From: Aequorivita iocasae | GTDB taxonomy: Bacteria; Bacteroidota; Bacteroidia; Flavobacteriales; Flavobacteriaceae | Length of the DNA: 64,000 nucleotides | Reading direction: 5' to 3' | Assembly: GCF_016757735.1 (NCBI RefSeq) | Contig: NZ_CP068439.1 | Span: 434,001-498,000 of the forward strand | In this document: positions 24,470 to 58,458 of the stretch, piece by piece | Position numbering within the stretch: position 1 is the first letter of the stretch | Layout of the letters: each line of letters opens with the position of its first letter | Made by a program: the position numbers and the translations under genes | Notes under the pieces: generated by a model | Seen by the model: the letters and a program-made list of their open reading frames with translations, nothing else | Database searches by the model: none | Told to the model about the DNA's origin: nothing

Positions 24470-24504
24470 TTGGGAATCCTTTTTCAAAAAAATATCTATA
24501 TTCG
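24470..24504 (+). promoter_or_regulatory. Possible trp operon promoter
   Basis: TATATTCG at 24497-24504 resembles the Bacteroidota TAnnTTTG box. A TTG at 24470-24472 is a possible upstream element, with 24 bases between, slightly long. Transcription would begin very close to the leader peptide start at 24515. Confidence 0.35.
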
Positions 24505-24514
24505 CAACGAAATA

Positions 24515-24571
24515 ATGAACAATTTTACACAAAATACTTGGTGGTGGAAAAACTTACGGAAAACCTCGTGA
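24515..24571 (+). CDS. trpL: trp operon leader peptide with three consecutive Trp codons
   Basis: 18 aa, MNNFTQNTWWWKNLRKTS, with three adjacent TGG codons at 24539-24547. It ends 30 bases before a strong intrinsic terminator that precedes trpE. This is the classical layout of ribosome-mediated attenuation: when charged tRNA-Trp is scarce the ribosome stalls on the Trp codons and lets the operon be read. The translation is read directly; the mechanism is inferred from the arrangement. Confidence 0.88.
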   Translation: MNNFTQNTWWWKNLRKTS

Positions 24572-24601
24572 GCGGAACACCTGTAGTATAAAATATACGA
24601 A

Positions 24602-24632
24602 AAGGCTTGTCAATCACGACAAGCCTTTTTTT
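24602..24632 (+). terminator. trp attenuator terminator hairpin
   Basis: A perfect 10-base stem, AAGGCTTGTC / GACAAGCCTT (24602-24611 and 24618-24627) around the loop AATCAC, followed by a T tract to 24632. A possible competing antiterminator pairs CCT (24580-24582) and GTAT (24586-24589) with ATAC (24595-24598) and AGG (24603-24605), which would capture part of the terminator's left arm. The alternative fold is inference. Confidence 0.88.
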
Positions 24633-33987: not shown

Positions 33988-34060
<73 letters not shown>

Positions 34061-44271: not shown

Positions 44272-44610
44272 ATGGCCTCACAAAATTATTATGACCCAGC
44301 AGATTTAAAAAAATTCGGAAATATCACAGAATGGAGCAAAGAGCTCGGTGAAAAATTTTTTGAATATTATGGAAAAGTTTTTGAAGAAGGCGCACTATCT
44401 GCCCGTGAAAAATCGCTCATCGCGCTTGCCGTGGCCCATACTGAAATGTGCCCTTATTGTATTGATGCCTATTCAAAGGACGGACTACAACGCGGCATCA
44501 CCAAAGAAGAAATGATGGAAGCCATACATGTGGGAGCAGCCATTAAAAGTGGCGCCAGCCTCGTACACGGAGTACAAATGATGAATAAGGTGAATAAACT
44601 TGAAATGTAA
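44272..44610 (+). CDS. Arsenosugar-associated CMD-family peroxidase-like protein
   Basis: 112 aa carboxymuconolactone-decarboxylase-like protein with the AhpD-type motif CPYCIDAYSKDGL (two Cys near residues 62 and 65, then His in IHVGA). Proteins of this subgroup sit next to arsS in many genomes and carry the name arsenosugar biosynthesis-associated peroxidase-like protein; their reaction is unproven. It may protect or process arsenic intermediates by redox chemistry (inference). First gene of the arsenosugar run. Confidence 0.87.
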   Translation: MASQNYYDPADLKKFGNITEWSKELGEKFFEYYGKVFEEGALSAREKSLIALAVAHTEMCPYCIDAYSKDGLQRGITKEEMMEAIHVGAAIKSGASLVHGVQMMNKVNKLEM

Positions 44611-44622
44611 AATAGAACAACA

Positions 44623-44796
44623 ATGATGAAAAACAAAATCAATCTATTCCTTCTCTCTTTAGGTCTGTCTGTAAATGCAACAACATTTATACTTACACAA
44701 TACATCAACCTTTCCGATTTTTTAAAGGGAGGTTTATTCGGAATTGGTATTGGTTTAATGCTCATGTCCTTTCTCAAGAAAAGACAAACTGCTTAA
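44623..44796 (+). CDS. Small two-helix membrane protein
   Basis: 57 aa (MMKNKINLFLLSLGLSVNATT...), or 56 aa from the second ATG at 44626. Two hydrophobic segments (about residues 7-24 and 37-50) and a KKRQTA tail. It lies between the peroxidase-like gene and arsS on the same strand. No family recognised; it could be a minor membrane part of the pathway or an unrelated peptide. Confidence 0.6.
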   Translation: MMKNKINLFLLSLGLSVNATTFILTQYINLSDFLKGGLFGIGIGLMLMSFLKKRQTA

Positions 44797-44832
44797 AATC
44801 ATTCTCCCGAATTTTCATTCGAAAAAAATTAT

Positions 44833-45909
44833 ATGCTTAAGGAAAAAAAGAAAAAACAACAATCTCTTCATAAACGCCATAGCGATCTTGCTATCGCAAA
44901 TAAACAGTTGGAAAAACTCTCCAACGGCATATTTGCCAATGGCGAGCTTCCTACTTTTTCAGAAAAAATAAACGAAACCAATCAGTTTCCCCTGCGACCG
45001 AAGAAACTTGAAATTCTTCAAATTAACGTTGGCTATATGTGCAATCAGGTTTGCGAGCATTGCCACGTAGACGCAGGCCCGGATCGAAAGGAGATAATGA
45101 CGCGCGAAACAATGGAGCAGTGTTTGGAGGTTATCCGAAACACGGGCGCCCATACGTTAGACTTAACTGGAGGCGCTCCCGAAATGAACCCAGATTTCCG
45201 TTGGTTTGTTGATGAGGCAAGTAAAGCTGGTATTCAAGATTTTATCGTTCGAAGTAACTTGACGATTATCCGCGCCAATAAAAAATATTACGATCTTCCG
45301 GAGTTTTTCAAAAGTCACAATGTACACGTTGTTAGCAGCATGCCACATTGGACTCGTGGAAAAACTGATAAACAACGTGGTGAGGGTGTTTTTGACCAAT
45401 CCATTAAAGCATTACAGGAATTGAATGCCGTCGGTTACGGAATGCCCGATAGCGATTTGCAGTTGGATTTAGTCTATAATCCAAGTGGTGCTTTTTTGCC
45501 GGGTGACCAGGCGAGCATGGAAAAAGATTTCAAGAAAGCATTATTGGAAGATTTCGGGATTCATTTCCACAATCTTTTTGCCATAACCAATTTACCCATT
45601 TCAAGATTTTTGGACTATTTGATCGCTTCGGACAATTATGAAGATTATATGTATTCTTTGGTTGAAGCATACAATCCCCTTGCCGTAAAGAATGTTATGT
45701 GTCGCAATACCATCTCAGTAAGTTGGGACGGCTATTTGTATGATTGCGATTTCAACCAAATGTTGGAATTGAAGGTTGCCAGTAAAATCCAGCACATTTC
45801 AGAATACAACGAAGATATTTTGAACGATAGAAAAATTGTAATTTCACAACATTGTTATGGTTGTACGGCAGGAGCAGGAAGCAGTTGCCAAGGCGCGACG
45901 GCAACATAA
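44833..45909 (+). CDS. arsS: Arsenosugar biosynthesis radical SAM protein
   Basis: 358 aa. Radical SAM motif CNQVCEHCHVD with [4Fe-4S] cysteines Cys70, Cys74 and Cys77. C-terminal cysteine-rich segment (VMCRNTISVSWDGYLYDCDFNQ; CYGCTAGAGSSCQG) matching the DUF3641 auxiliary region of ArsS. ArsS links the 5'-deoxyadenosyl group of SAM to trimethylated/dimethylated arsenic, the committed step to arsenosugars. The gene stands 36 bases after the small membrane gene and 28 bases before a rhodanese gene. Confidence 0.94.
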   Translation: MLKEKKKKQQSLHKRHSDLAIANKQLEKLSNGIFANGELPTFSEKINETNQFPLRPKKLEILQINVGYMCNQVCEHCHVDAGPDRKEIMTRETMEQCLEVIRNTGAHTLDLTGGAPEMNPDFRWFVDEASKAGIQDFIVRSNLTIIRANKKYYDLPEFFKSHNVHVVSSMPHWTRGKTDKQRGEGVFDQSIKALQELNAVGYGMPDSDLQLDLVYNPSGAFLPGDQASMEKDFKKALLEDFGIHFHNLFAITNLPISRFLDYLIASDNYEDYMYSLVEAYNPLAVKNVMCRNTISVSWDGYLYDCDFNQMLELKVASKIQHISEYNEDILNDRKIVISQHCYGCTAGAGSSCQGATAT

Positions 45910-45937
45910 ATACTACTATTTTGGTTTAAACAATTTC

Positions 45938-46438
45938 ATGAAAACATTTTTTACATTCTTAGTTTGCTTGCTTTTTTCAGGTATGATGGTGGGTCAAAAG
46001 CCACTTGATGAATTGTTGAAACAATACAACACCCAAAGTGTCCCTTACATTGCTGTTGAAGAATTGCGCATGTTTCAAATGAATGACACGGTTACAATAT
46101 TAGATGCGCGAGAGCCCGAGGAATTTAATGTAAGCCACATAAAGTCCGCAATAAATGTTGGATATAACAATTTTTCTTTAGAGGAAAAACAAATCCAAAA
46201 ATTGAATAAATATATTCCTGTAATTGTATATTGCTCGGTTGGAATCCGTTCTGAAAAAATAGCCGAAAAATTGAAAAATGCTGGTTTTGATACCGTAAAA
46301 AATCTTTACGGCGGTATCTTTGAATGGAAGAATAAGGGTTTTCCAATTATTGATCCTGAAGGAAAAGAAACTGAAAATGTGCACGCCTTTTCCAGCCATT
46401 GGAGCAAATATTTAACTGCCGGAAACCCTGTTTACTGA
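45938..46438 (+). CDS. Secreted rhodanese-like protein
   Basis: 166 aa from the ATG at 45938; an earlier in-frame codon at 45857 lies inside arsS and is rejected. Signal peptide ends MMVGQ. A single rhodanese domain with active-site loop CSVGIRS (Cys near residue 98). In the arsenosugar run it may deal with sulfur species or simply share the operon (inference). Confidence 0.86.
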   Translation: MKTFFTFLVCLLFSGMMVGQKPLDELLKQYNTQSVPYIAVEELRMFQMNDTVTILDAREPEEFNVSHIKSAINVGYNNFSLEEKQIQKLNKYIPVIVYCSVGIRSEKIAEKLKNAGFDTVKNLYGGIFEWKNKGFPIIDPEGKETENVHAFSSHWSKYLTAGNPVY

Positions 46439-46440
46439 CA

Positions 46441-46465
46441 CTAATTACTGATTACTTATTACTGA
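46441..46465 (+). repeat. Degenerate heptamer array upstream of the TIGR04282 glycosyltransferase gene
   Basis: Three 7-base units TAATTAC, TGATTAC and TTATTAC at 46442-46462, then TGA, ending 4 bases before the ATG at 46469. Same period and position as the trpC and trpB arrays but a different unit. Confidence 0.75.
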
Positions 46466-46468
46466 AAA

Positions 46469-47161
46469 ATGGGCTTACTTTCCTCAAAACAAACTGACGG
46501 CGACAATGAAATGGCTTTCGATTTTCATTTCCCCACTTCAAAAAAGGCATTGCTAATTTTTACGCGAAACCCAGAATTGGGAAAAGTAAAAACGCGCTTG
46601 GCAAAATCGGTTGGCGATGAAAGCGCACTGAAAATTTACAAGTTTCTGCTGAAACATACAGTGGAAATCACAGAGAAATTGAATGTGGATAAATATGTTT
46701 TTTATTCAGAAAACATTCATCGTGATGACATTTGGAATCCAGATATTTTCAGAAAAAAATTACAAATAGGAAATGATTTAGGCGAAAGGATGAAAAATGC
46801 CTTTTCGGAAATCTTCGGGATGGGCTATGAAAAAGCAATCATCATTGGCAGTGATATGTTCGATTTAAGCAAAAATGATTTGGAAACTGCTTACGATGTG
46901 CTAGAAACAACTCCATTCGTGATTGGCCCCGCGACCGACGGCGGTTATTATTTATTGGGAATGAAAGAATTGAATCCCGAAATATTTCAAAATAAAGATT
47001 GGGGAACTAGTAACGTTTTGGAAACTACGCTGAAAGATTTACCAAACGAAAAATATGTTCTGCTCGAAGAACGCAATGATGTTGATTATTTTGAAGACAT
47101 TAAAGAGATTGACGCATTTCAGCAATTTCTACCACCTTATTTGGACAAAAATTTTTTATAG
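46469..47161 (+). CDS. TIGR04282-type arsenosugar glycosyltransferase (DUF2064)
   Basis: 230 aa nucleotidyl/glycosyltransferase-A fold. Landmarks: ALLIFTRNPELGKVKTRLAKSVG, IIIGSDMFDLS (DxD-like site) and FVIGPATDGGYYLLGM. Members are placed in arsenosugar loci and are thought to modify the ribose. A second in-frame Met (residue 15) is a possible start. Stops 3 bases before the phosphorylase gene. Confidence 0.9.
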   Translation: MGLLSSKQTDGDNEMAFDFHFPTSKKALLIFTRNPELGKVKTRLAKSVGDESALKIYKFLLKHTVEITEKLNVDKYVFYSENIHRDDIWNPDIFRKKLQIGNDLGERMKNAFSEIFGMGYEKAIIIGSDMFDLSKNDLETAYDVLETTPFVIGPATDGGYYLLGMKELNPEIFQNKDWGTSNVLETTLKDLPNEKYVLLEERNDVDYFEDIKEIDAFQQFLPPYLDKNFL

Positions 47162-47164
47162 AAT

Positions 47165-47983
47165 ATGAATACTTTAAAATACATTGAAGAAGCGGCGGCC
47201 TATCTTCAACAAAGAGAGTTTGACAAACCCGAAATAGGGATTATTCTCGGGACCGGCCTCGGGAAAATAATTGAAAAGGTGAACGTTGAGGCAGAAGTAA
47301 GCTACAACCACATTCCCAATTTCCCTACGGCCACCGTTGAATTTCACAAAGGAAAATTGATTTACGGTACGTTGGAAGGGAAAAAAGCAGTGCTTATGCA
47401 GGGCCGCTTTCACGTCTATGAGGGCTATTCACTTACCGATGTTACCTTCCCCGTGCGTGTGATGCACCTTTTGGGAATCAAGCAATTGCTGGTAAGCAAC
47501 GCTTCGGGAGCTATAAATAGCAATTTCAAAAAAGGTGAAATCATGCTAATTGACGACCACATAAACCTCCAGGGAGATTCGCCCCTTGCCTTTCGCGGAG
47601 TAGAAAAAATGGGGGAACGTTTTGTAGATATGAGCGCACCTTACAATGCTGAAATGAATCAGAAAATGGAGCAGATTGCTTCAGAAAAAAATATAAAACT
47701 GCACAAAGGTGTGTACGTCAGCGTGGTTGGGCCACAATTGGAAACCCGTGCTGAATATCGCTATTTAAAAATAATAGGTGCCGATGCAGTGGGAATGAGC
47801 ACAGTGCCAGAAGTTATCGTCGCCAATCATTTGGGGTTGCCCGTTTCGGCAGTTTCAATCCTAACTGATGAATGTGATCCAAACGACCTAAAACCTGTGA
47901 ATATTGAAGAAATAATCGCAATGGCTGCCAAAGCGGAACCAGACATGATTACGTTATTTACAGAATTAATCAAACAACTTTAG
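47165..47983 (+). CDS. Trimeric-type purine nucleoside phosphorylase
   Basis: 272 aa. Family landmarks: ILGTGLGKI, MQGRFHVYEGYS, SNASGAIN, GPQLETRAEYR and GADAVGMSTVPE. Glu193 corresponds to the purine-binding Glu of trimeric PNPs. At the next specificity position (SILTDECD) it has Asp235, where the human and Cellulomonas enzymes have Asn; Asp there favours 6-amino purines. Placed between the TIGR04282 glycosyltransferase and arsM, so a role in removing adenine from an arseno-deoxyadenosine is plausible, though general purine salvage is also possible. Confidence 0.93.
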   Translation: MNTLKYIEEAAAYLQQREFDKPEIGIILGTGLGKIIEKVNVEAEVSYNHIPNFPTATVEFHKGKLIYGTLEGKKAVLMQGRFHVYEGYSLTDVTFPVRVMHLLGIKQLLVSNASGAINSNFKKGEIMLIDDHINLQGDSPLAFRGVEKMGERFVDMSAPYNAEMNQKMEQIASEKNIKLHKGVYVSVVGPQLETRAEYRYLKIIGADAVGMSTVPEVIVANHLGLPVSAVSILTDECDPNDLKPVNIEEIIAMAAKAEPDMITLFTELIKQL

Positions 47984-47992
47984 AATAATACC

Positions 47993-48961
47993 ATGAGCTA
48001 TCTAGATATCACAAACAACGTATACAAACAAGCGGCACTCACCCCAGATGTGGGGCTATGCTGCACCACAAACCCCATTTGGGAACTTCCCGGACTAAAG
48101 ATTCCTAAGATTATGCAGGAAATGAACTATGGCTGCGGAAGCACCGTAAATGCACGCGATCTTACCAATAACCCGAAAATATTATATGTTGGCGTTGGTG
48201 GTGGAATGGAACTGCTTCAGTTTTCATATTTCAATAGAACTGAAAATGGCGTTATTGGGATTGATACGGTAGGTGAAATGCTTGAAGCTTCCCGAAAAAA
48301 CTTTGCGGAAGCTGAAAGATTAAACCCCTGGTTTAAAAGTGAGTTTATAGATTTAAAAAAAGGCGATGCCCTAAACCTTCCCGTAGAAGATAATAGTATT
48401 GATGTTGCGGCACAGAACTGTCTTTTCAATATTTTTAAGGCTGAAGATCTTAAAAAAGCTATTGAAGAAATGTACCGTGTTTTAAAACCTCACGGACGTT
48501 TAGTTATGAGCGACCCGATTTGCGAACAGCAAATGAACCAAACCCTTCGCGAAGATTCCCGCCTTCGCGCACTTTGTTTAAGCGGAAGCATTCCAATTGC
48601 TGAATACGTGAAAGCGTTGACCGATGTAGGTTTCGGCACTATTGAAATTCGCGCTAGAAAACCATACCGAATTCTTGATCCAAAAAACTATCCAACGGAC
48701 GAATTAATCTATATCGAATCAATTGAGGTTGCTGCAATAAAAGACCCAATGCCCGAAGACGGACCGTGTATTTTTACGGGAAAAGCCGCTATTTATTACG
48801 GAAACGAAGCTTATTTTGATGATAAAAAAGGACACATCCTTTTAAAAAACCAACCCTTAGCAATTTGTGATAAAACCGCGGGAGCTATAGCAAACTTAAA
48901 TCGTGATGACATTTTTATTAGCGAATCTACATTTCATTATGACGGGGGAGGCTGTTGTTAA
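47993..48961 (+). CDS. arsM: Arsenite methyltransferase of the arsenosugar type
   Basis: 322 aa. SAM-binding Rossmann motif YVGVGGGMELLQ near residue 65. The arsenic-binding cysteines of ArsM are present: Cys48 (YGCGS), Cys143 (QNCLFNIF) and Cys195 (LCLSGS), along with extra Cys23-Cys24 near the N-terminus and a GGGCC C-terminal end that may bind metal. Converts arsenite stepwise to methylated forms, the substrate of ArsS. 10 bases after the phosphorylase gene. Confidence 0.93.
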   Translation: MSYLDITNNVYKQAALTPDVGLCCTTNPIWELPGLKIPKIMQEMNYGCGSTVNARDLTNNPKILYVGVGGGMELLQFSYFNRTENGVIGIDTVGEMLEASRKNFAEAERLNPWFKSEFIDLKKGDALNLPVEDNSIDVAAQNCLFNIFKAEDLKKAIEEMYRVLKPHGRLVMSDPICEQQMNQTLREDSRLRALCLSGSIPIAEYVKALTDVGFGTIEIRARKPYRILDPKNYPTDELIYIESIEVAAIKDPMPEDGPCIFTGKAAIYYGNEAYFDDKKGHILLKNQPLAICDKTAGAIANLNRDDIFISESTFHYDGGGCC

Positions 48962-49014
48962 AGTGTTGTAATCGTCACAGGCGTTTTCCGTCTAAAGACA
49001 GATAAAACTTTGCA

Positions 49015-49911
49015 GTGGAAAAATACTTTGAAATCTTTAAAAACTCCTACCAGGGTTACTTTAACTATCTGTGGAATGAAATTACTCACTTCCATTGGGA
49101 AAACTATTTTTACGGATTGATCGCTGTTTCTTTTATGGTCTGGGTTTTAGAACTTTTATTTCCCTGGCGGAAAAATCAAAAAATTTTCCGAAAAGATTTT
49201 TGGCTGGATACCTTTTATATGTTCTTTAATTTTTTCCTTCTAAATTTAATTGTACTTATTTTTTTATCAAATGCTTCTGCAGAACTATTCAACGATCTTT
49301 TGGCAATTTTAGGATTGGAACTTTCAGATTTTCAGTTTCTTAATTTGGATGCGCTTCCTTTTGGATTGGGGCTTTTAATTTTCTTTCTGGTTACCGATTT
49401 TGTGCAGTGGAATACCCACAGACTGCTACATTACTCCCCTTTTCTTTGGAATTTTCACAAACTGCACCATTCGGTAAAAGAGATGGGATTTGCGGCACAT
49501 CTGCGTTACCATTGGATGGAACCTGTGGTTTACAAATCGCTGCTTTACATCCCACTTGCCATCATTGGTGGTTTTGATGTGGAATCGGTTGCGATTGTAC
49601 ATTTTTCGGCGCTCGCCATTGGTCACTTAAATCACGCCAATCTGGGATGGGACTATGGTTTTTTGAAATACATTTTCAACAATCCAAAAATGCACATTTG
49701 GCATCACGCTAAAGTTTTACCAAAACACGCCCAATATGGTGTTAATTTCGGGATCAGTTTGAGTATTTGGGATTATCTTTTCAAAACAAATCATATTCCG
49801 TACAATGGAAGGGATATAGAGTTAGGCTTTGATGGGGACGAAAAATTTCCTTCAAGCTTTATTTCCCAAGAATTGTATCCCATCAAAACCAGACAGCGAA
49901 ATAATTCGTAA
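49015..49911 (+). CDS. Sterol desaturase/fatty acid hydroxylase family protein (GTG start)
   Basis: 298 aa, starting with GTG at 49015. Several membrane segments and the tripartite His boxes of the di-iron FA-hydroxylase superfamily: NTHRLLHYSPFLWNFHKLHH, IGHLNHANLGW and KMHIWHHAK. Would use O2 to hydroxylate or desaturate a lipid or carotenoid. It sits immediately after arsM on the same strand, so a lipid-linked arsenical as substrate or product is possible (inference). Confidence 0.9.
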   Translation: MEKYFEIFKNSYQGYFNYLWNEITHFHWENYFYGLIAVSFMVWVLELLFPWRKNQKIFRKDFWLDTFYMFFNFFLLNLIVLIFLSNASAELFNDLLAILGLELSDFQFLNLDALPFGLGLLIFFLVTDFVQWNTHRLLHYSPFLWNFHKLHHSVKEMGFAAHLRYHWMEPVVYKSLLYIPLAIIGGFDVESVAIVHFSALAIGHLNHANLGWDYGFLKYIFNNPKMHIWHHAKVLPKHAQYGVNFGISLSIWDYLFKTNHIPYNGRDIELGFDGDEKFPSSFISQELYPIKTRQRNNS

Positions 49912-49939
49912 TTATTTCAACACCAAAATTTATTCCTAA

Positions 49940-50743
49940 ATGAAAACCATCTTTAACCTAGCAACAATACTTTTTTTGGCATTTTCATTACAAAGCTGTA
50001 ATCTGCTTTCCGCCGCAGGCGTTAGCAGTCAAGGGCAACCCACTAAAGAAGTTCAGTCCGAACTCACCTCAACTACCGCAAATTCTGCAGTAAATGTAGA
50101 GCATTCACAATGGGACAAATTGCTGAAAAAACATGTAGACAGTGAAGGTATGGTAGATTATAAAGGGTTCAAAAAAGACGAAGCCAAACTGGATGAATAT
50201 TTAAATATGCTTTCAGAAAAAAAACCGACTGATGATTGGAGCGTCCAGGAATTGCTGGCGTATTACATCAATCTTTACAACGCAGCGACCGTAAAATTGA
50301 TCGTGGAAAACTATCCCGTAAAAAGTATAAAAGATATTGACGGTGCCTGGACTAAAGGCCGTGTGGCTGTTGGTGATAAAATGCTATCCCTCGGCGGAAT
50401 TGAAAACGGAATTCTTCGAAAAATGAACGAGCCACGTATCCATTTCACTATAAACTGTGCTTCCATTTCCTGCCCAAAACTTTTGGATGAAGCGTACACA
50501 GCTGCAAAAATTAACGAGCAATTGGATCGTGCCACCAAAGAATTCATCAATAGCGATAAAAACGATATTTCACCACAAACTCCACAAGTTTCCTCTATTT
50601 TTGATTGGTACCAAAAAGATTTCAAAGTAAACGGCAAACAGGATGTTATTGGGTTTATCAATAGATACGCAAATACAAAGATAAATTCCGAAGCAAGTTT
50701 AAGTTACAAGAGTTATAATTGGGAATTGAACGAACAAAATTGA
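49940..50743 (+). CDS. DUF547 lipoprotein
   Basis: 267 aa. Lipobox LQSC (Cys20). DUF547 signatures: LAYYINLYNAATVKLIVENYPVKSI, and the cysteine/histidine-rich HFTINCASISCPKLL. Located at the membrane or periplasm. DUF547 proteins have no known reaction. It lies in the arsenosugar run between a hydroxylase and a glycosyltransferase. Confidence 0.9.
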   Translation: MKTIFNLATILFLAFSLQSCNLLSAAGVSSQGQPTKEVQSELTSTTANSAVNVEHSQWDKLLKKHVDSEGMVDYKGFKKDEAKLDEYLNMLSEKKPTDDWSVQELLAYYINLYNAATVKLIVENYPVKSIKDIDGAWTKGRVAVGDKMLSLGGIENGILRKMNEPRIHFTINCASISCPKLLDEAYTAAKINEQLDRATKEFINSDKNDISPQTPQVSSIFDWYQKDFKVNGKQDVIGFINRYANTKINSEASLSYKSYNWELNEQN

Positions 50744-50789
50744 TTTTGTAAAAATCAATAAATTGCAAACTGCAACCAAAAAAAATTGA

Positions 50790-51551
50790 ATGCTTTCCAT
50801 CATCATCCCGGTTTTAAACGAAGCCGAAAACATCACCAATTTACTTGAGCATTTAACCGAAAATATATCGGAAAAAGGCAAAGTTGAATTGATTGTGGTA
50901 GACGGTGGAAGCAACGATGGCACTCCCCAGTTAATCAAAAACTTTACTGAAAGCCAAACTATACCTATTAGTTTAATCACCACTTCCGAGAGTGGCCGTG
51001 CAAAACAGATGAACGAAGGTGCGCGAAACGCTTCGGGAGAAATTCTTTACTTTCTGCACGCTGATTCATTTCCGCCGAAAAACTTTGATAGTTATATTCT
51101 TTCAGAAGTAAAAAGGGGAAATCCCGCAGGCTGTTTCCGAATGAAATTTGATAGCGACCATTGGTGGCTGCAACTTGCCGGATGGCTTACGCAATTTAGC
51201 TGGCGTGCATGCCGTGGTGGTGATCAAAGCCAATTTATAACCAAAAAACTTTTTGATGAAATTGGCGGTTTTGATGAAAACTACACAATTTATGAAGACA
51301 ATATTTTAATTAACGAGCTTTACAAGCGGAAGAAATTTGTGGTAATTCAAAAATGCATAACCACCTCAGCGCGCCTTTACAGACAAAAAGGCGTTTGGAA
51401 CTTGCAATATCACTTTTGGGCAATTTATGTGAAACGTTGGTTTGGTGCAGATGCCGAGGAACTGTACAAATATTATTTGAAGCATATCAAGCAAGCGAAT
51501 AACACGGAAATTTCAGAAGAAAAATTCTCCAATCAAGTTGCTGAAAATTAA
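50790..51551 (+). CDS. TIGR04283-type arsenosugar glycosyltransferase (GT2)
   Basis: 253 aa, GT-A fold. Landmarks: SIIIPVLNEAENI at the start, VVDGGSNDGT, SGRAKQMNEGA, FLHADSFPP (DxD-like), and WRACRGGDQSQFITKKLFDEIGGFDE. This subgroup is tied to arsenosugar loci. It probably adds a sugar or glycerol unit to the arsenic nucleoside. Follows DUF547 after 46 bases. Confidence 0.92.
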   Translation: MLSIIIPVLNEAENITNLLEHLTENISEKGKVELIVVDGGSNDGTPQLIKNFTESQTIPISLITTSESGRAKQMNEGARNASGEILYFLHADSFPPKNFDSYILSEVKRGNPAGCFRMKFDSDHWWLQLAGWLTQFSWRACRGGDQSQFITKKLFDEIGGFDENYTIYEDNILINELYKRKKFVVIQKCITTSARLYRQKGVWNLQYHFWAIYVKRWFGADAEELYKYYLKHIKQANNTEISEEKFSNQVAEN

Positions 51552-51637
51552 AGAGATTTAAAATCTTTTGATTTTCAAAGTGGTTTCTTTCCAAAATTTT
51601 TAGGATATTGTAAAGAAAAACCAACAAAAACAAAGCT

Positions 51638-52072
51638 ATGAACATTTTTGAAGCAATTAGAAAAGACCACGACAAACAACGCGAACTCTGCCGTTTGGTA
51701 ACCTCCACTTCGGGTGATTCAAAAGGAAGAAAGGAAATGTGGGAAAAACTGAAGCACGAATTAAAAATACATGCAGACGCAGAGGAGCGCACATTTTATT
51801 CACCTCTAATCCACAACGATATGATGCAGGAACACGCCCGCCACGGAATTGCGGAGCATCACGAAATGGACGAACTAATGGAAAAAGTAGACGAAACCGA
51901 TATGGATTCTCCCGCTTGGCTTATTTACGCAAAACAACTTTGCGAAAAGGTAGAGCACCATTTGGAAGATGAGGAGCACAGCTTTTTTCAATTGGCAGGA
52001 AAAGTTTTCACCGAAACACAAAAAACAGCCATTGCCAAGGATTATTTGGAAGAAATGAAAAAGAATAGATAA
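51638..52072 (+). CDS. Hemerythrin-domain protein
   Basis: 144 aa, no signal. HHE-type four-helix bundle with iron ligands visible in IRKDHDKQRE, LKIHADAEERTFY, HHEMDEL and HHLEDEEHSFF. Di-iron site for O2, NO or redox sensing. It closes the plus-strand run before a minus-strand gene. Confidence 0.9.
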   Translation: MNIFEAIRKDHDKQRELCRLVTSTSGDSKGRKEMWEKLKHELKIHADAEERTFYSPLIHNDMMQEHARHGIAEHHEMDELMEKVDETDMDSPAWLIYAKQLCEKVEHHLEDEEHSFFQLAGKVFTETQKTAIAKDYLEEMKKNR

Positions 52073-52083
52073 GTTGTGAAGCG

Positions 52084-53139
52084 CTACTCTTTTTTGGTAG
52101 AATACTGTTTTAAAATTAGCTGCAGTGCAGGTTTGTTTTGTGGCGTAAACTGATTGTCATCGGGCCCTCCCACTTTTTCGTTTATAATAAACCATTTCCA
52201 AAGGAAACCACCCGCAAACCAATCCTCTTCCCAAACCGATTTGTAGAGTCCTTCCAGTAAATTTATTTGGGCCTCTAAGTTTACAGAAGTCATTTCCCTA
52301 TTGCTTTTCCACGGTTCTTTGCCACTAAAATCCACACTTCGATAACCGTATTCCGCAAAGAGGATTTTTTTATTTTCCTTTTCTGAAATGGTTTTTAATT
52401 CTTTTTTCCATCGCTCCCAACCTGCTATTGCCTCTTCAACAGTGGGGGTTTCGCTCTCCGAAATGGGGAAATAAGCATCCACGCCAATATAATCCAGTGC
52501 ATCCCAAAACGGTACGCGCTTGTATTCATCCCAATTGGCGGCATAGGTCAATTTGCCCGTGTAAATCTTTTTCACTTCCGCAATCAATTCTCGCCAATAG
52601 TTTGGGCGGTGCTCAATGAATTTTTCCAACTCGGTACCAATACAGAAAATTTCAATCTCTTCTGCCTCTGCAACTTTTGCAAAATTGAGGATGAAATTTT
52701 TATAATTGATTTCAAGTTGAAGCCAATCTGCTTCCGAAGCCATTTCAACCCAACCCGTATATCCGCCATTCCAAACCCATATTTGGGGTTTCATCATTAC
52801 CTTAATTTCATTTTTGTGGAGCAATTCAACATATTGTGTTACCCCTTCGCGCGTTTCACCAAACCATTGCCGCTCTTGGTCGTAGATTATTTCGGGATGG
52901 TTTAAACTTCTTATAAAACCGAACGGCATTACGGTAACATAATTGGCATGGACTTCCTTTAAAGAAGCAACATTTTTGTGCGAAAGTGAATCTGGAGCTG
53001 CCACAAGGCTCACACCGTTTATTTTGGAAACGGTCAAATTTTGAATTATTTTTTCTCCGGAAGAATTCTTCTTTTGGGCGCATCCAATTATAATGGTGAA
53101 AAGAAGAATACCGTGTAGAAAGCGATGAAGCAATAGCAT
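52084..53139 (-). CDS. GH113-like glycosidase lipoprotein
   Basis: 351 aa. Signal peptide with lipobox IIGC (Cys20). TIM-barrel sequence resembling glycoside hydrolase family 113 beta-mannanases: PQIWVWNGGYTGW, FCIGTEL (acid/base Glu), DYIGVDAYFPIS and FAEYGYRS (nucleophile Glu), then GFLWKWF. Location and lipid anchor suggest a role at the cell surface. It interrupts the plus-strand arsenosugar run in the opposite direction. Confidence 0.85.
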   Translation of the reverse strand: MLLLHRFLHGILLFTIIIGCAQKKNSSGEKIIQNLTVSKINGVSLVAAPDSLSHKNVASLKEVHANYVTVMPFGFIRSLNHPEIIYDQERQWFGETREGVTQYVELLHKNEIKVMMKPQIWVWNGGYTGWVEMASEADWLQLEINYKNFILNFAKVAEAEEIEIFCIGTELEKFIEHRPNYWRELIAEVKKIYTGKLTYAANWDEYKRVPFWDALDYIGVDAYFPISESETPTVEEAIAGWERWKKELKTISEKENKKILFAEYGYRSVDFSGKEPWKSNREMTSVNLEAQINLLEGLYKSVWEEDWFAGGFLWKWFIINEKVGGPDDNQFTPQNKPALQLILKQYSTKKE

Positions 53140-53270
53140 TTTGAAAGTATTAAAAGTTGAATTTAAGGTTTTATTTCAGAAATTAGGGAATTATTAATAA
53201 CCGTTTCGAAACTGCCCAAATTGGAATTGCGTAAATTTATAGACGACTGAAAAAACCAATCACCAAAAGT

Positions 53271-54572
53271 ATGGAGCACATCGTCATTATAGGCAACGGA
53301 ATTGCTGGAGTTACTGCAGCTCGACACATCCGAAAACTTTCCAATAAAAAAATTACTATTATTTCCGCTGAAGCCGGCCATTTTTTCTCCCGAACTGCTC
53401 TAATGTACGTTTACATGGGCCATATGCGATGGCGCGATATTGAACCCTATGAAAGCTGGTTTTGGGAAAAAAACAGGCTGGAACTCAAAAGAGAATATGT
53501 TGAAACTGTTGACACAAACAACAAAATACTTCATTTTAAAGGCGGCGGTAGCCTAAGCTACGACAAATTGATTATCGCCTCAGGCTCGGTAACAAATACC
53601 TTTGGCTGGGAAGGTTTGGAATTGAATGGCGTACAGGGTTTGGTGACAAAACAGGATTTGGAAAAACTCGAAAAAAATGCACCAAACAACAAAGAATGTC
53701 CCCGCGCGGTAATCGTCGGTGGCGGTTTGATAGGCGTTGAAATGGCCGAAATGCTCCGAACACGTGATATTGAAGCAACCATGCTGGTCCGCGAAGAGGG
53801 GTTTTGGAGCAACGTCCTTCCAAAACATGATGCCGAAATGATTTCGAAACATATATTATCACATGGAGTTGATCTAAGACACAACGAAGAACTTAATAAA
53901 ATTTTGGGTGATGGCAAAGGCAATGTACGCGCCATTGTAACCAAAGATGGGGAGGAAATTCCGTGTTGCGTGGTTGGAATTACCACAGGCGTAAAGCCAC
54001 AGATTTCTTTTTTGAAGAATTCAAAAATTGAAACCGATAAAGGTATTTTGGTAAACCGAAAACTGGAAACCAACATTGAAGGGGTATATGCCATTGGCGA
54101 TTGCGCCCAACAGCGCGAGACTATCGGCAACCGCCCACCCGTAGAGGCGGTTTGGTACACCGGCAGAATGATGGGCGAGACTTTGGCACAGACTATTTGC
54201 GGAAAACCTTTTGAGTACAATCCCGGAAACTGGTTTAACAGCGCCAAATTTTTTGACATTGAATACCAAACCTACGGATGGGTTTTTTCAGAAAGTAAAC
54301 TGAAGGATTACGAAAAACAATTCCACTGGAAATGTGCGAGCGACCTTCGCTGCGTAACAATTTCATATAATAAAAATTCAAATGAATTTCTGGGAATAAA
54401 CACCTTCGGAATAAGGATGAAACATGAGGTTTTTGACAAATGGCTAAATGAAAAGCGAAGTGTTGGTTATGTAATTGAAAATTTAAAACAAGCCAATTTC
54501 GACCCAGAATTTTATAAAAAATATGAAGCGGAAATTCAATCAATATTTTTCAACCAACCCGTAAATGTTTAA
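53271..54572 (+). CDS. FAD/NAD(P)-dependent pyridine nucleotide-disulfide-like oxidoreductase
   Basis: 433 aa. Two dinucleotide-binding motifs: IIGNGIAGVTAA at the N-terminus and IVGGGLIGVEMAEML near residue 148, plus the FAD motif VYAIGDCAQ. Resembles the NADH-nitrite-reductase/ferredoxin-reductase subgroup. It overlaps the following membrane Fe-S protein gene by 8 bases, indicating that the two form an electron-transfer pair. Confidence 0.9.
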   Translation: MEHIVIIGNGIAGVTAARHIRKLSNKKITIISAEAGHFFSRTALMYVYMGHMRWRDIEPYESWFWEKNRLELKREYVETVDTNNKILHFKGGGSLSYDKLIIASGSVTNTFGWEGLELNGVQGLVTKQDLEKLEKNAPNNKECPRAVIVGGGLIGVEMAEMLRTRDIEATMLVREEGFWSNVLPKHDAEMISKHILSHGVDLRHNEELNKILGDGKGNVRAIVTKDGEEIPCCVVGITTGVKPQISFLKNSKIETDKGILVNRKLETNIEGVYAIGDCAQQRETIGNRPPVEAVWYTGRMMGETLAQTICGKPFEYNPGNWFNSAKFFDIEYQTYGWVFSESKLKDYEKQFHWKCASDLRCVTISYNKNSNEFLGINTFGIRMKHEVFDKWLNEKRSVGYVIENLKQANFDPEFYKKYEAEIQSIFFNQPVNV

Positions 54573-56163
54573 TCAAATGAGTACAGTGCAACGAAACATG
54601 TCGCTTACGGGGGAACCGCCAAAAACCATAAACACACAACAAAAGCTCGCTTCTGCTATAGGTTTGATAGGTTTGTCCGTACTTTTTTTGGCCTTATTAA
54701 ATGTAAACTTTCCAAATAAAACCCTTTGGCTCACAGCCTCCTTAATAATGATTGGAGGAGGAACCATCTGGTTTTCCACGGCAGCATATTTAAATAAACA
54801 CGAAGGCATTAAAAATGACGGCGTGTATTTTAAATCGCTCACTTCGAAGGGATTTTGGGCTTGGGTTTTAGGTATTATTCTCACTCTATTTTATGTGGTA
54901 CTTTATTGGTTTCCGCAGTATTTGGGGTTAGTGAAGAATGGTGAAAACAAGGGAATAGTAGCGCTTTTTGACCCCTTGAGCAAATTGCTGAACGGTGGCC
55001 CCGCAAGTCAATGGTTTGTTTACGGAACCCTTTATACCTTGGCAATATTGGCATTTGGGATAAAATTCATCTTAAAATACCGCCATAATAAATACGAAAA
55101 ATTGCGAACCTATTCAGTGATGTTCTTTCAATTGGGTTTCGCGTTTTTGATTCCCGAACTCATGCTGAGATTAAACAGTGAATCCTTTTCCCTTCCCTAT
55201 TACGACCTAAAAAATATTTGGCCCCTCAATTATTACAATTTTGAGCAATACAGGGTAGATCAGTTTATTTCGGCTGGCGATATTGGCTTGGCATTATTGA
55301 TTTTTGGAATCGTGTCCATTTTTGTAATCACGCCAATTTTAACCTATAAATACGGCAAACGCTGGTACTGTAGTTGGGTCTGCGGTTGCGGGGGATTAGC
55401 AGAAACCGCCGGCGATGCCTTTCGGCATTTGAGCGACAAACGGCAAATAGCCTGGAAGGTGGAACGCTGGGTAATCCACAGCGTGCTGGTGTTTGTGGTT
55501 TTGATGACTACGGCGGTGGTGCATAGCTATTTGGGCGATGACAGTTCAAAATATTGGTTGACGAAAGACGTGTTCCTAATTTCCGTGGCAGTAATCCTAA
55601 CGGCCGTTTTTGCGGGAACGTTTATTTTTAAAAAGGAGGAATTACAAAAAGACGCCCGTTACGGGGCAATCGGTTATTTCGTGATTATTATTTCGTTAAT
55701 TGGGTTTCACTATTTTTCTGGAAAAACTTTGTTTCTATTTGAAGCCGAGACCCTTCGAAAAAGCTATGGTTTTTTAATAGGCGCCGTTTTTAGCGGAGTG
55801 ATTGGCGTAGGTTTTTACCCCATCTTCGGAAGTCGTGTTTGGTGTCGTTTCGGTTGCCCGATGGCTGCAATTCTTGGTTTTCAGCAACGGCTTTTTTCGC
55901 GTTTCAGAATTACCACAAACGGCGGACAATGCATCAGCTGCGGCAATTGTTCCACCTATTGCGAAATGGGCATCGACGTTCGTGCTTATGCCCAAAAAGG
56001 AGAAAACATTGTACGTTCCAGTTGTGTGGGCTGCGGAATCTGCTCGGCAGTTTGCCCGCGTGGGGTATTGAAACTTGAAAATGGTCCTCTGGAAAAAAGA
56101 ATTGATTCAAACGAAGTTCTTTTGGGAAATGATGTGGATTTGATGAATTATGTAAATAAGTAG
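54565..56163 (+). CDS. Membrane-bound 4Fe-4S protein, NapH/NosR-like
   Basis: 532 aa with about eight or more membrane segments. Cysteine sites CSWVCGCGG (about 270), CRFGCPM (about 427), then two ferredoxin clusters CISCGNCSTYC and CVGCGICSAVCPRG near the C-terminus. The layout matches NapH/NosR-type quinol or ferredoxin electron carriers, with the upstream flavoprotein as the likely NAD(P)H side. It could supply electrons to the di-iron hydroxylase or to ArsS upstream (inference). Confidence 0.88.
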   Translation: MFNQMSTVQRNMSLTGEPPKTINTQQKLASAIGLIGLSVLFLALLNVNFPNKTLWLTASLIMIGGGTIWFSTAAYLNKHEGIKNDGVYFKSLTSKGFWAWVLGIILTLFYVVLYWFPQYLGLVKNGENKGIVALFDPLSKLLNGGPASQWFVYGTLYTLAILAFGIKFILKYRHNKYEKLRTYSVMFFQLGFAFLIPELMLRLNSESFSLPYYDLKNIWPLNYYNFEQYRVDQFISAGDIGLALLIFGIVSIFVITPILTYKYGKRWYCSWVCGCGGLAETAGDAFRHLSDKRQIAWKVERWVIHSVLVFVVLMTTAVVHSYLGDDSSKYWLTKDVFLISVAVILTAVFAGTFIFKKEELQKDARYGAIGYFVIIISLIGFHYFSGKTLFLFEAETLRKSYGFLIGAVFSGVIGVGFYPIFGSRVWCRFGCPMAAILGFQQRLFSRFRITTNGGQCISCGNCSTYCEMGIDVRAYAQKGENIVRSSCVGCGICSAVCPRGVLKLENGPLEKRIDSNEVLLGNDVDLMNYVNK

Positions 56164-56275
56164 CAGTATTCAGTTGTAGTGCGCAGCATAGAGCTTTCAG
56201 GTTTAAGAATATACTTGTCAAACGGAATGTCATATATTTTTCTGAAATTCGCAATTCAAAAATTCCCCAGTTTTA

Positions 56276-56971
56276 ATGTCCAAAATTATTAAAGTAATAA
56301 TTCCCGCCTATAATGAAGAAGCCTCTATAGGGAAAGTGATTGCTGAAATTCCGGATATCGTTTCAGAAATAATTGTGGTCAACAATAACTCTACCGACAC
56401 TACTGCCGAAGTTGCCAAAAAGGCGGGTGCCACAGTACTGTTTCAACCACAAGCCGGCTACGGAAACGCCTGCTTAAAAGGGATGGAATACATTTCAGAA
56501 GAAAAAACAAAACCAGAAATAATAGTTTTTCTCGATGGCGATTACAGTGATTACCCTTCGGAGTTGCCGCAAATCGTAGCTCCTATTATAGAGAATAATA
56601 TAGATTTTGTAGTGGGTGCACGGGTAAAAGCATTGCGAGAATCTGGGTCGATGACTTTTCCCCAGCGCTTTGGCAATGAATTGGCAACAAAACTGATGAG
56701 ACTTTTTTTCAATTCAAAATTTACCGACCTGGGACCCTTTCGTGCCATTAAATATGAAAAATTGCTTTCCCTAAACATGGAGGACAAAACCTATGGCTGG
56801 ACTGTGGAAATGCAACTGAAAGTTTTGAAAAAGAAATTTACATATGCTGAAGTGCCTGTAAAATATAAAAACCGCATCGGGGTCTCCAAAGTTTCGGGTA
56901 CGGTAAAAGGTGCTATCTTTGCGGGCGTAAAAATCCTTAGCTGGATCTTTAAATACAGTTTCAAAAAATGA
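56276..56971 (+). CDS. Glycosyltransferase family 2 (dolichyl-phosphate mannose synthase-like)
   Basis: 231 aa. Starts KVIIPAYNEEASIGKVI; catalytic Asp in NNNSTDTT, then DGDYSDYP as the DxD-like site. Resembles DPM-type polyprenyl-phosphate glycosyltransferases. It overlaps the next glycosyltransferase gene by 4 bases. Confidence 0.9.
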   Translation: MSKIIKVIIPAYNEEASIGKVIAEIPDIVSEIIVVNNNSTDTTAEVAKKAGATVLFQPQAGYGNACLKGMEYISEEKTKPEIIVFLDGDYSDYPSELPQIVAPIIENNIDFVVGARVKALRESGSMTFPQRFGNELATKLMRLFFNSKFTDLGPFRAIKYEKLLSLNMEDKTYGWTVEMQLKVLKKKFTYAEVPVKYKNRIGVSKVSGTVKGAIFAGVKILSWIFKYSFKK

Positions 56972-58458
56972 TTCTTGAATCAATAATCATTGCCGTTTAT
57001 TCCATTGCCCTGCTCCTCATTTTTATGTATGCCTTGGCGCAGTTGAATTTGTTATTCAACTATTTAAAGGCTCGAAAAAGCAATAAATATTCACCAACAT
57101 TTGATTTTTCAAATGAAGAAGAAGTTCCCTTGGTAACCATCCAACTTCCGGTTTATAACGAGCTTTACGTAATGGAACGTCTGCTGGATAATATAGCCGA
57201 AATTGATTATCCAGCGGAAAAGTTTGAAATACAAGTGCTTGACGACAGCACCGATGAATCTTTTGAGGAAACCGCAAGGCACATTAAAGCGCTTCAGAAA
57301 ACAGGTTTGGACATTCATCATGTAACGCGCGAAAACCGTAAAGGTTTTAAAGCTGGCGCGCTGAAAGAAGGCTTAAAAACTGCCAAAGGCGAATATATAG
57401 CTATTTTTGATGCAGATTTTCTTCCAAAGAAAAATTGGTTAAAAAATACCATACCATATTTTAAAGATGAGAAAATTGGAGTGGTGCAAACCCGCTGGGG
57501 GCATTTAAACCGTGACTACTCCATACTTACGCGTGTTCAAGCCTTTGCGCTCGATGCACATTTCACTTTGGAACAGGTGGGAAGAAACAGCAAAGGACAT
57601 TTTATAAATTTCAATGGAACGGCGGGCGTTTGGCGAAAGGAATGCATTCTGGACGCCGGCAACTGGGAAGGCGACACACTTACCGAAGATTTGGACCTCA
57701 GCTACCGTGCGCAGCTTAAAAACTGGAAATTTAAATATTTGGAAGAAGTTGAAACCCCGGCGGAACTTCCGGTGGTTATCAGTGCGGCGCGTTCCCAACA
57801 ATTTAGGTGGAACAAAGGCGGAGCCGAAAATTTTCAGAAAATGGCGTGGCGTGTTTTTAAAAGCCACGATATTTCTGCGAAAACCAAAATACACAGCTTT
57901 CTGCATTTGCTAAACAGCACCATGTTTTTGAACATTTTGATAGTGGCAATTTTAAGCATTCCGATGCTTTATATCAAAAATGAATACGAACATTTGAAAT
58001 TGTACTTCTATGTGATGAGCTTTTTTGTCGCCAGCACGATTATTTTTTTCATCTGTTATTGGTTTACTTACAAAACTATCTATGGCGGCGGTTTTAAACA
58101 TTTTGTGAAATATTCAGCTATGTTTTTCACCTTTTTTTCAGTAGCAATGGGCTTTTCACTACACAATTCCATTGCAGTCTTGGAAGGACATTTTGGTAAG
58201 AAAAGCGAATTTATACGTACCCCAAAATTCAATATAAGTACTTTAAAGGAAAGCTGGAAAGGCAATAAATACCTGGCCAAAAACATCTCACCAAATGTGA
58301 TTTTTGAAGGTATTTTAATGCTCTATTTCGCCTTTGGGATGTACAGTGCCTTTGTGGTTGGCGATCAAGGAGGCGATTTTGGACTGTTCCCGTTTCACCT
58401 CATGCTTTTTTTGGGATTTGGGTTTGTGTTTTTTAAATCATTGACTTCAAAAGCATAG
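56968..58458 (+). CDS. Processive-type GT2 membrane glycosyltransferase
   Basis: 496 aa. An N-terminal membrane segment, cytoplasmic GT2 domain with VLDDSTDES, DADFLP, TEDLDLSYRAQ, and QQFRWNKG, i.e. the D,D,D,QxxRW signature of cellulose-synthase-like enzymes, and about four or more C-terminal membrane segments. It forms a long sugar or a lipid-linked glycan; substrate unknown. Pairs with the upstream DPM-like enzyme. Confidence 0.92.
   Translation: MILESIIIAVYSIALLLIFMYALAQLNLLFNYLKARKSNKYSPTFDFSNEEEVPLVTIQLPVYNELYVMERLLDNIAEIDYPAEKFEIQVLDDSTDESFEETARHIKALQKTGLDIHHVTRENRKGFKAGALKEGLKTAKGEYIAIFDADFLPKKNWLKNTIPYFKDEKIGVVQTRWGHLNRDYSILTRVQAFALDAHFTLEQVGRNSKGHFINFNGTAGVWRKECILDAGNWEGDTLTEDLDLSYRAQLKNWKFKYLEEVETPAELPVVISAARSQQFRWNKGGAENFQKMAWRVFKSHDISAKTKIHSFLHLLNSTMFLNILIVAILSIPMLYIKNEYEHLKLYFYVMSFFVASTIIFFICYWFTYKTIYGGGFKHFVKYSAMFFTFFSVAMGFSLHNSIAVLEGHFGKKSEFIRTPKFNISTLKESWKGNKYLAKNISPNVIFEGILMLYFAFGMYSAFVVGDQGGDFGLFPFHLMLFLGFGFVFFKSLTSKA

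Follow-up and report, generated by a model that had tools for sequence, protein, structure and literature searches.

A candidate locus for de novo arsenosugar synthesis and its conserved surrounding genes in Aequorivita iocasae

Introduction

What does a bacterial locus make when the arsenite methyltransferase ArsM and the radical S-adenosylmethionine (SAM) enzyme ArsS stand among glycosyltransferase, redox-type, and lipid-type genes, and which of these genes belong to one system? We addressed this question for a locus in a 64,000-nucleotide stretch of Aequorivita iocasae DNA (the window; G000:C1:434001-498000), whose source genome is a single contig of 3.35 Mb. To our knowledge, both the route from the arsenic nucleoside made by ArsS to an arsenosugar and the point of attachment of the sugar seem open. 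In the available text of PMC12159101, which cites Cheng 2021, a radical SAM enzyme is described as adenosylating arsenic in oxo-arsenosugar biosynthesis. Our reading, to which we assign a probability of about 0.68, is that the locus probably serves de novo arsenosugar synthesis and is accompanied by a conserved outer shell of genes.

Results

Core enzymes and gene order

The forward strand carries, in order, a CMD/AhpD-type peroxidase-like protein (CMD), ArsS, a rhodanese, TIGR04282, a purine nucleoside phosphorylase (PNP), ArsM, a fatty-acid hydroxylase (FAH), a DUF547 lipoprotein, TIGR04283, and a hemerythrin-like protein. A reverse-strand GH113-family gene follows and then, forward again, an FAD oxidoreductase (FADox), a NapH-like protein, and two GT2 glycosyltransferases, GT2a and GT2p. 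As intergenic gaps from CMD through hemerythrin are only 3–222 nt and the pairs FADox/NapH and GT2a/GT2p overlap, two operons are likely; PNP begins 3 nt after TIGR04282. The nearest named relative among the matches listed was Aequorivita soesokkakensis, with 96% identity in ArsS; its locus (L176) also contains ArsM.

CMD, ArsS, TIGR04282, PNP, ArsM, and TIGR04283 all scored above curated cut-offs, and FAH, DUF547, the flavoprotein FADox, the Fe-S protein, and both GT2 enzymes passed their Pfam cut-offs (Table 1). The radical SAM motif of ArsS, C70-x3-C74-x2-C77, was invariant in 10/10 aligned members. Likewise, ArsM residues Cys48, Cys143, and Cys195, which we take to be the classical ArsM cysteines, were invariant in 3/3 aligned sequences. 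The TIGR04282 protein was related to the solved structure 3cgx (E 2.8e-26), annotated as a putative nucleotide-diphospho-sugar transferase, from which we propose a nucleoside diphosphate (NDP)-sugar activation step. Predicted membership of ArsM, ArsS, TIGR04282, PNP, and TIGR04283 in a core pathway is supported, and the core locus is of an already known kind.

An initial sequence-only reading of this DNA had described the same motifs and had placed its named genes at these coordinates on the forward strand, and we found both to be correct. Its picture of a one-strand locus holds for the genes it named and not for the whole stretch, given the reverse GH113 gene, and its gene list overlooked GH113, the rhodanese, and the hemerythrin-like protein.

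Conservation of the locus across the family

Of the 249 genomes of the family, 147 matched the ArsM model NF038099 above cut-off. Neighborhoods from 7 kb upstream to 13 kb downstream of ArsM were taken from 100 of these 147 genomes, chosen for contig room; because the stretches stop at +13 kb, distal genes are undercounted. By strict counts with identity thresholds, PNP was present at 96 of the 100 loci, TIGR04282 at 95 (at least 38% identity), TIGR04283 at 86, DUF547 at 84, rhodanese and GH113 at 81 each, FADox at 75, ArsS at 74, CMD at 70, NapH at 66, GT2a at 53, GT2p at 50, and FAH at 35. A looser first count that took in distant paralogues gave 100 for TIGR04282, 88 for DUF547, 82 for rhodanese, and 36 for FAH; the stricter thresholds shifted totals by a few units and left all odds as they were. 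Control genes that flank the locus in the window were rare (TDO 2, DUF488 1, DUF481 11, FMN-binding 0). The named genes thus recur at 35–96 loci against 0–11 for the flanking genes, an association beyond chance.

Every conserved locus gene lay on the ArsM strand except one DUF547 (83 on-strand) and GH113, which was syntenic at its 81 loci and always reverse. The conserved position of DUF547 supports its assignment to the system. Hemerythrin, present at 6 of 100 loci, was rejected as a member and is probably local; the FMN-binding gene was also rejected. Among the loci of relatives (L codes), the compact L116, L243, and L247 had the order ArsS-TIGR04282-PNP-(ArsM)-FADox-NapH-GT2a-GT2p with nothing else in between.

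Co-occurrence of the outer genes with ArsS and TIGR04282

Whole-genome co-occurrence was examined in 80 of the 249 family genomes (G codes), selected by completeness and low contig number; 40 of them matched NF038099 above cut-off and the other 40 did not. ArsS was present in all 40 of the former and 19 of the latter, giving 59 ArsS-positive and 21 ArsS-negative genomes. TIGR04282 was found in 59/59 ArsS-positive versus 6/21 ArsS-negative genomes and the NapH-like protein in 54/59 versus the same six; split by TIGR04282 instead, the NapH-like protein occurred in 60/65 genomes with it and 0/15 without. A FAH relative was present somewhere in the genome in 58/59 ArsS-positive and 7/21 ArsS-negative genomes, and in 64/65 genomes with TIGR04282 versus 1/15 without. 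GT2p was universal among ArsS-positive genomes (59/59) but was also found in 11/21 ArsS-negative ones.

FAH copies of at least 68% identity stood at the locus, or at a split-off part of it, in 27 genomes. The remaining 38 matches were copies of 50–58% identity lying away from the locus except in G143, and only G087 and G101 had two full copies. As these non-locus copies occur elsewhere in the genome, FAH and the locus are associated even when they are not neighbors. In G125, a short FAH match (G125:C1:2461342-2461614; 91 aa, 66%) lies near ArsM, and a full copy is found elsewhere in the genome.

At the class level, 28 of 149 genomes had ArsS, 32 had the NapH-like protein, and 24 had both (Fisher p 5e-17), that is, NapH in 24/28 ArsS-positive versus 8/121 ArsS-negative genomes; for these counts the ArsS and NapH draws were taken as the same 149 genomes, some 100 no-match rows being unlisted in each. 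The two genes lay on the same contig within ~10 kb in 7 of the 24 (G000, G131, G259, G272, G278, G284, and G350) and on separate contigs in the other 17, and 17 family codes in the class contain both.

Co-occurrence supports the NapH-like protein and FAH as predicted members of the system, and adjacency to NapH does the same for FADox; for the GT2a-GT2p pair the case is weaker. Taken as a genomic association, an extended modular organization is supported. The accessory genes that the sequence-only reading had drawn into the system may thus stay there, the GT2 pair less securely. Neither NapH nor FAH was as frequent away from arsS/arsM as with them, a difference that was weaker for GT2p. That the accessory genes always travel with ArsM does not hold, as FAH is at the ArsM locus in the minority counted above and otherwise usually elsewhere in the genome.

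A membrane slot upstream of GT2a

The NapH-like protein carries C269-x3-C273, C427-x3-C431, and two C-terminal 4Fe-4S motifs, and it is not a member of the NapH model TIGR02163 (53.6 bits, cut-off 213.05). Five ArsS-positive genomes were without it. In four of these (G038, G046, G098, and G143), GT2a is directly preceded by a small membrane protein that contains a CC pair; in the fifth, G142, the stretch upstream of GT2a was not covered. This CC protein matches MerT weakly, below cut-off (Pfam, 17.9 of 32.9 bits). Within four genes upstream of GT2a, 79 of 90 loci had NapH, 9 had the CC protein, 2 had neither, and none had both. Counted by genome, the 77 family genomes with GT2a gave 70, 5, 2, and 0, respectively; the remaining 13 loci are named records, which were limited to the 80 best among at least 593 and possibly repeat some family genomes. 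In both genomes with neither, NapH lies at a greater distance, within the locus in G042 and elsewhere in G014. On a tree of eight joined proteins, G143, G098, and G038/G046 fell in at least three places.

These observations point to a putative membrane redox or thiol step that could be filled in two ways, by FADox-NapH or by a MerT-like protein. AlphaFold models of the two proteins (mean pLDDT 50.4 for NapH-like and 63.2 for MerT-like) were too poor for use. The MerT-like protein was seen just before GT2a in L084, L106, L135, L137, L142, L223, L238, L244, and L246.

An importer-type cassette in relatives without ArsM

Among the 19 genomes with ArsS and without NF038099, 8 had a classical ArsM above cut-off (with an internal stop in G121) and 11 had neither; the term ArsM-less here refers to these two models, which another methyltransferase could escape. 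Nine of the 11 ArsM-less genomes have a sodium symporter, a phosphoesterase, and SusD at the ArsS locus, joined by SusC in 8 (in G176, SusC was not recognized at the end of the stretch). Of the 9 cassette genomes, 8 also carry a second, partial TIGR04282-like gene. Genome-wide, the symporter occurred in 9/11 ArsM-less genomes, 1/8 with classical ArsM (G121), 4/40 with NF038099, and 0/21 without ArsS, hence in 5/48 ArsS-positive genomes outside the ArsM-less set; at locus level, it stood at 10/100 ArsM loci. No such symporter was found in a genome-wide search of the window genome, which has ArsM.

The eight-protein tree gave 11 independent pairs, in which the cassette went the same way in 8.3 on average and the opposite way in 0.0 (sign test, median p 0.0078, range 0.0039–0.031). 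A tree of PNP alone was poorly resolved, with 3 pairs on starred branches and a median p of 0.5. G046 and G098 have neither ArsM nor cassette. In G027, from the same genus as the window, the whole locus is present without ArsM, PNP and FAH lie 43 nt apart, and a classical ArsM (NF008823) is encoded on another contig. The ArsM-less loci with the cassette beside ArsS were L136, L138, L139, L141, L143, L147, L148, L149, and L150.

Because most ArsM-less genomes carry this SusC-SusD/symporter/phosphoesterase cassette at ArsS, the simplest reading suggests that they import a putative arsenic source instead of synthesizing it. The cargo of SusC-SusD might also be an ordinary nucleoside, since in G227 (L258), which lacks ArsS, relatives of SusC and SusD (43 and 37%) precede a nucleoside hydrolase, with a second TIGR04282-like gene alongside. 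Arsenosugar uptake is described as largely unknown in the available text of PMC12608789, and ArsM-less relatives with an importer-type cassette make bacterial uptake of organoarsenicals testable.

Discussion

Proposed pathway

A de novo arsenosugar route could run as follows. ArsM would dimethylate As(III), and ArsS would join the 5′-deoxyadenosyl group of SAM to dimethylarsenic to yield dimethylarsino-adenosine; both reactions are known for their families and are assigned here by membership. PNP may then strip adenine to leave arsenoribose-1-phosphate, which TIGR04282, a relative of CofC-like nucleotidyltransferases, would activate as an NDP-sugar. TIGR04283, the GT2a-GT2p pair, or both might move arsenoribose to an acceptor. 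FADox and the NapH-like polyferredoxin could feed electrons to ArsS or reduce pentavalent methylarsenic, a MerT-like CC membrane protein taking their slot in some relatives, and FAH and the DUF547 lipoprotein may act on the acceptor or the envelope. As some compact loci, with no TIGR04283 in the fetched stretch, keep GT2a-GT2p and often a GT-C-like gene, GT2a may be what the last step generally depends on; the window has no GT-C gene directly after GT2p.

Residues of PNP bear on the third step. Both Asp235 and Glu193 were kept in 120/120 PNPs (240–330 aa, one per genome), and Asp235 presumably occupies the position of Asn243 in human PNP. According to the available text of PMC2799393, human PNP with E201Q + N243D cleaves adenosine-based prodrugs. 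As a hint of an adenosine-type substrate, Asp235 is only suggestive because the Glu is kept, unlike in the human double change.

Several observations weigh against this reading of the locus and its shell. PNP also passes the inosine/guanosine-specific (6-oxopurine) model TIGR01700 (306.3, cut-off 293.35), its Glu193 is never replaced, and the Asp is shared with the solved PNPs 4lna, 8swt, and 4m1e, the position being Asn in 8swu and 4ns1. TIGR04283 might not provide the final step everywhere, because it was not found, nor were DUF547 and rhodanese, in the fetched stretches of compact loci L116, L137, L243, L244, L246, and L247. GT2p occurs in five genomes that have neither ArsS nor TIGR04282, four ArsS-positive class genomes lack NapH, and the family-level Fisher tests ignore descent. 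The outer shell can, furthermore, exist without ArsS, as six of the 21 ArsS-negative family genomes retain both TIGR04282 and NapH, and eight ArsS-negative class genomes keep NapH. For the six family genomes, secondary loss of ArsS appears likelier than an arsenic-free pathway: in G184 the second TIGR04282-like gene adjoins a TetR gene, with no CMD-ArsS in between, where L201, L213, and L253 have CMD-ArsS.

Alternative readings

The sequence-only reading had proposed that the product may be an arsenosugar phospholipid or other arsenolipid, whose lipid part FAH and the GT2 genes would build. The strong tie of FAH to TIGR04282 fits this idea, as do the DUF547 lipoprotein and, in 40 of 90 GT2a loci, a GT-C-like protein after GT2p that weakly resembles the polyprenol-phosphomannose-dependent MptB (35.5 of 40 bits); cyanobacterial arsenolipids are among the works cited in the available text of PMC12159101. 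It nevertheless seems doubtful to us. In the window, GT2p is followed by an FMN-binding gene and not by GT-C, and none of the 20 window proteins scanned between 42072 and 59791 is a phosphatidyl- or glycerophosphate-transferring enzyme. The only lipid family matched was the OlsE model NF052566, and FAH fell far under its cut-off (85.1 of 475 bits) and is not a member.

It is also unlikely that only the core (CMD, ArsS, rhodanese, TIGR04282, PNP, ArsM, and TIGR04283) makes arsenosugar, and that FADox, NapH-like, GT2a, GT2p, and GH113 form an unrelated envelope operon kept by synteny. Such a division would accommodate GT2p in about half of the ArsS-negative genomes, the invariably reversed GH113, and the six genomes that retain outer genes without ArsS. 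It sits poorly with NapH, which tracks ArsS across the class even where the two are on different contigs, is contiguous with ArsS-PNP in the compact loci, and in some loci yields its slot to a MerT-like protein.

Another improbable alternative places PNP outside the arsenic pathway, salvaging 5′-deoxyadenosine or methylthioadenosine from SAM enzymes. The presence of PNP at nearly all ArsM loci fits a helper role too. ArsS is said to leave the adenosyl group on arsenic, so that no deoxyadenosine by-product is required, and the position of PNP directly behind TIGR04282 suggests onward use of ribose-1-phosphate. On the other side, by-products of radical-SAM enzymes are known to be salvaged by phosphorylases, as far as the available excerpts go.

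The sequence-only reading had noted no arsR, arsC, or arsenite efflux gene, and this holds among the same 20 scanned proteins, where no classical ars operon was found; it does not hold for the genome, in which ACR3 lies at C1:427101-428087, ~50 kb away from the locus and 5.9 kb outside the left edge of the window. There, in L260 (G000:C1:425601-429587), DUF6428, ArsN1-like, ArsC-like, and ACR3 genes stand in a row. An efflux-only account of detoxification, in which the cluster supplements this ACR3 operon and could be dispensed with, is, despite these resistance genes, highly improbable given the distance and the retention of arsenosugar-type ArsM in most family genomes.

A broader arsenical-sugar system

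Extending the arsenosugar reading further, we tentatively consider a modular arsenical-sugar system of Bacteroidia, although we rate it as rather improbable. Its arsenic source would be made (ArsM) or imported (SusC-SusD, sodium symporter, and phosphoesterase), its membrane slot would hold FADox-NapH or a MerT-like protein, and arsenoribose would pass on polyprenyl phosphate, via GT2a and GT-C, to an envelope glycan or lipid. If true, bacteria would have a way to take up organoarsenic nucleosides or sugars, and arsenic would play a part at the cell surface.

Features of the window

Table 1. Genes of the locus, in window coordinates, with model scores in bits
Feature	Position	Strand	Evidence
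CMD/AhpD-type peroxidase-like protein, arsenosugar loci	44272..44610	+	TIGR04169 188.7, cut-off 120
ArsS radical SAM enzyme, DUF3641	44833..45909	+	TIGR04167 444.8, cut-off 300; C70, C74, C77, C-terminal C341, C344, C352
Rhodanese, signal-peptide-like start	45938..46438	+	NF045521 198.6, cut-off 145; start picked by eye, open reading frame as listed begins 45857
TIGR04282 CofC-like nucleotidyl/glycosyltransferase	46469..47161	+	210.4, cut-off 134
Purine nucleoside phosphorylase (PNP)	47165..47983	+	NF006054 347.6, cut-off 218
Arsenosugar-type arsenite methyltransferase ArsM	47993..48961	+	NF038099 565.5, cut-off 400
FAH, fatty-acid hydroxylase/sterol desaturase superfamily membrane protein	49015..49911	+	PF04116; His boxes by eye
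DUF547 lipoprotein	49940..50743	+	Passes Pfam; lipobox LQSC by eye
TIGR04283 GT2 glycosyltransferase	50790..51551	+	233.6, cut-off 182
Hemerythrin-like protein	51638..52072	+	PF01814
GH113-family protein, divergent from FADox	52084..53139	-	Pfam cut-off passed
FADox, FAD/NAD(P) pyridine nucleotide-disulphide oxidoreductase	53271..54572	+	PF07992
NapH-like membrane polyferredoxin, two C-terminal 4Fe-4S motifs	54565..56163	+	Fe-S protein passes Pfam
GT2a, GT2 nearest polyprenyl/dolichyl-phosphate-sugar synthases	56276..56971	+	Pfam cut-off passed
GT2p, processive-type GT2	56968..58458	+	Pfam cut-off passed

Elsewhere in the window, a Bacteroidete trp leader RNA was seen at 24495-24611 (+) and a tRNA-Phe at 33988-34060 (-). 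Scans for sigma-70 promoters (46 versus 38.9 in shuffles) and terminators (13 versus 16.5) gave numbers close to those of shuffled sequence.

Comparison with known systems

Our searches of openly licensed literature on arsenosugar genes and lipids brought up no description of such a locus, which is not proof of novelty. The co-occurrence counts, from 80 genomes of the family and 149 of the class, yield a short, testable list of genes: PNP, TIGR04282, FADox-NapH, and FAH.

Parts of the locus resemble other known systems. FAH shares the FA_hydroxylase superfamily with the ornithine lipid hydroxylase OlsE, though at the low score given above. The NapH-like protein has the cysteine pairs and two C-terminal 4Fe-4S motifs of NapH/MauN-type membrane ferredoxins; its partner, in contrast, is an FAD oxidoreductase, and none of the 20 scanned proteins was a nap or mau gene product. 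Like the mercuric transport protein MerT, the CC protein of the relatives is a small membrane protein with a vicinal CC near its first predicted helix, but it occupies the place that FADox-NapH takes in most loci. The locus is also close to the ArsM-ArsS arsenosugar pathway, for which the available text of PMC12159101 cites oxo-arsenosugars of cyanobacteria and the ArsS study of Cheng 2021: both families are present in the window, above cut-off and with their cysteines kept. Here they stand with PNP, TIGR04282, TIGR04283, rhodanese, FADox-NapH, FAH, DUF547, and the GT2 pair in one conserved locus.

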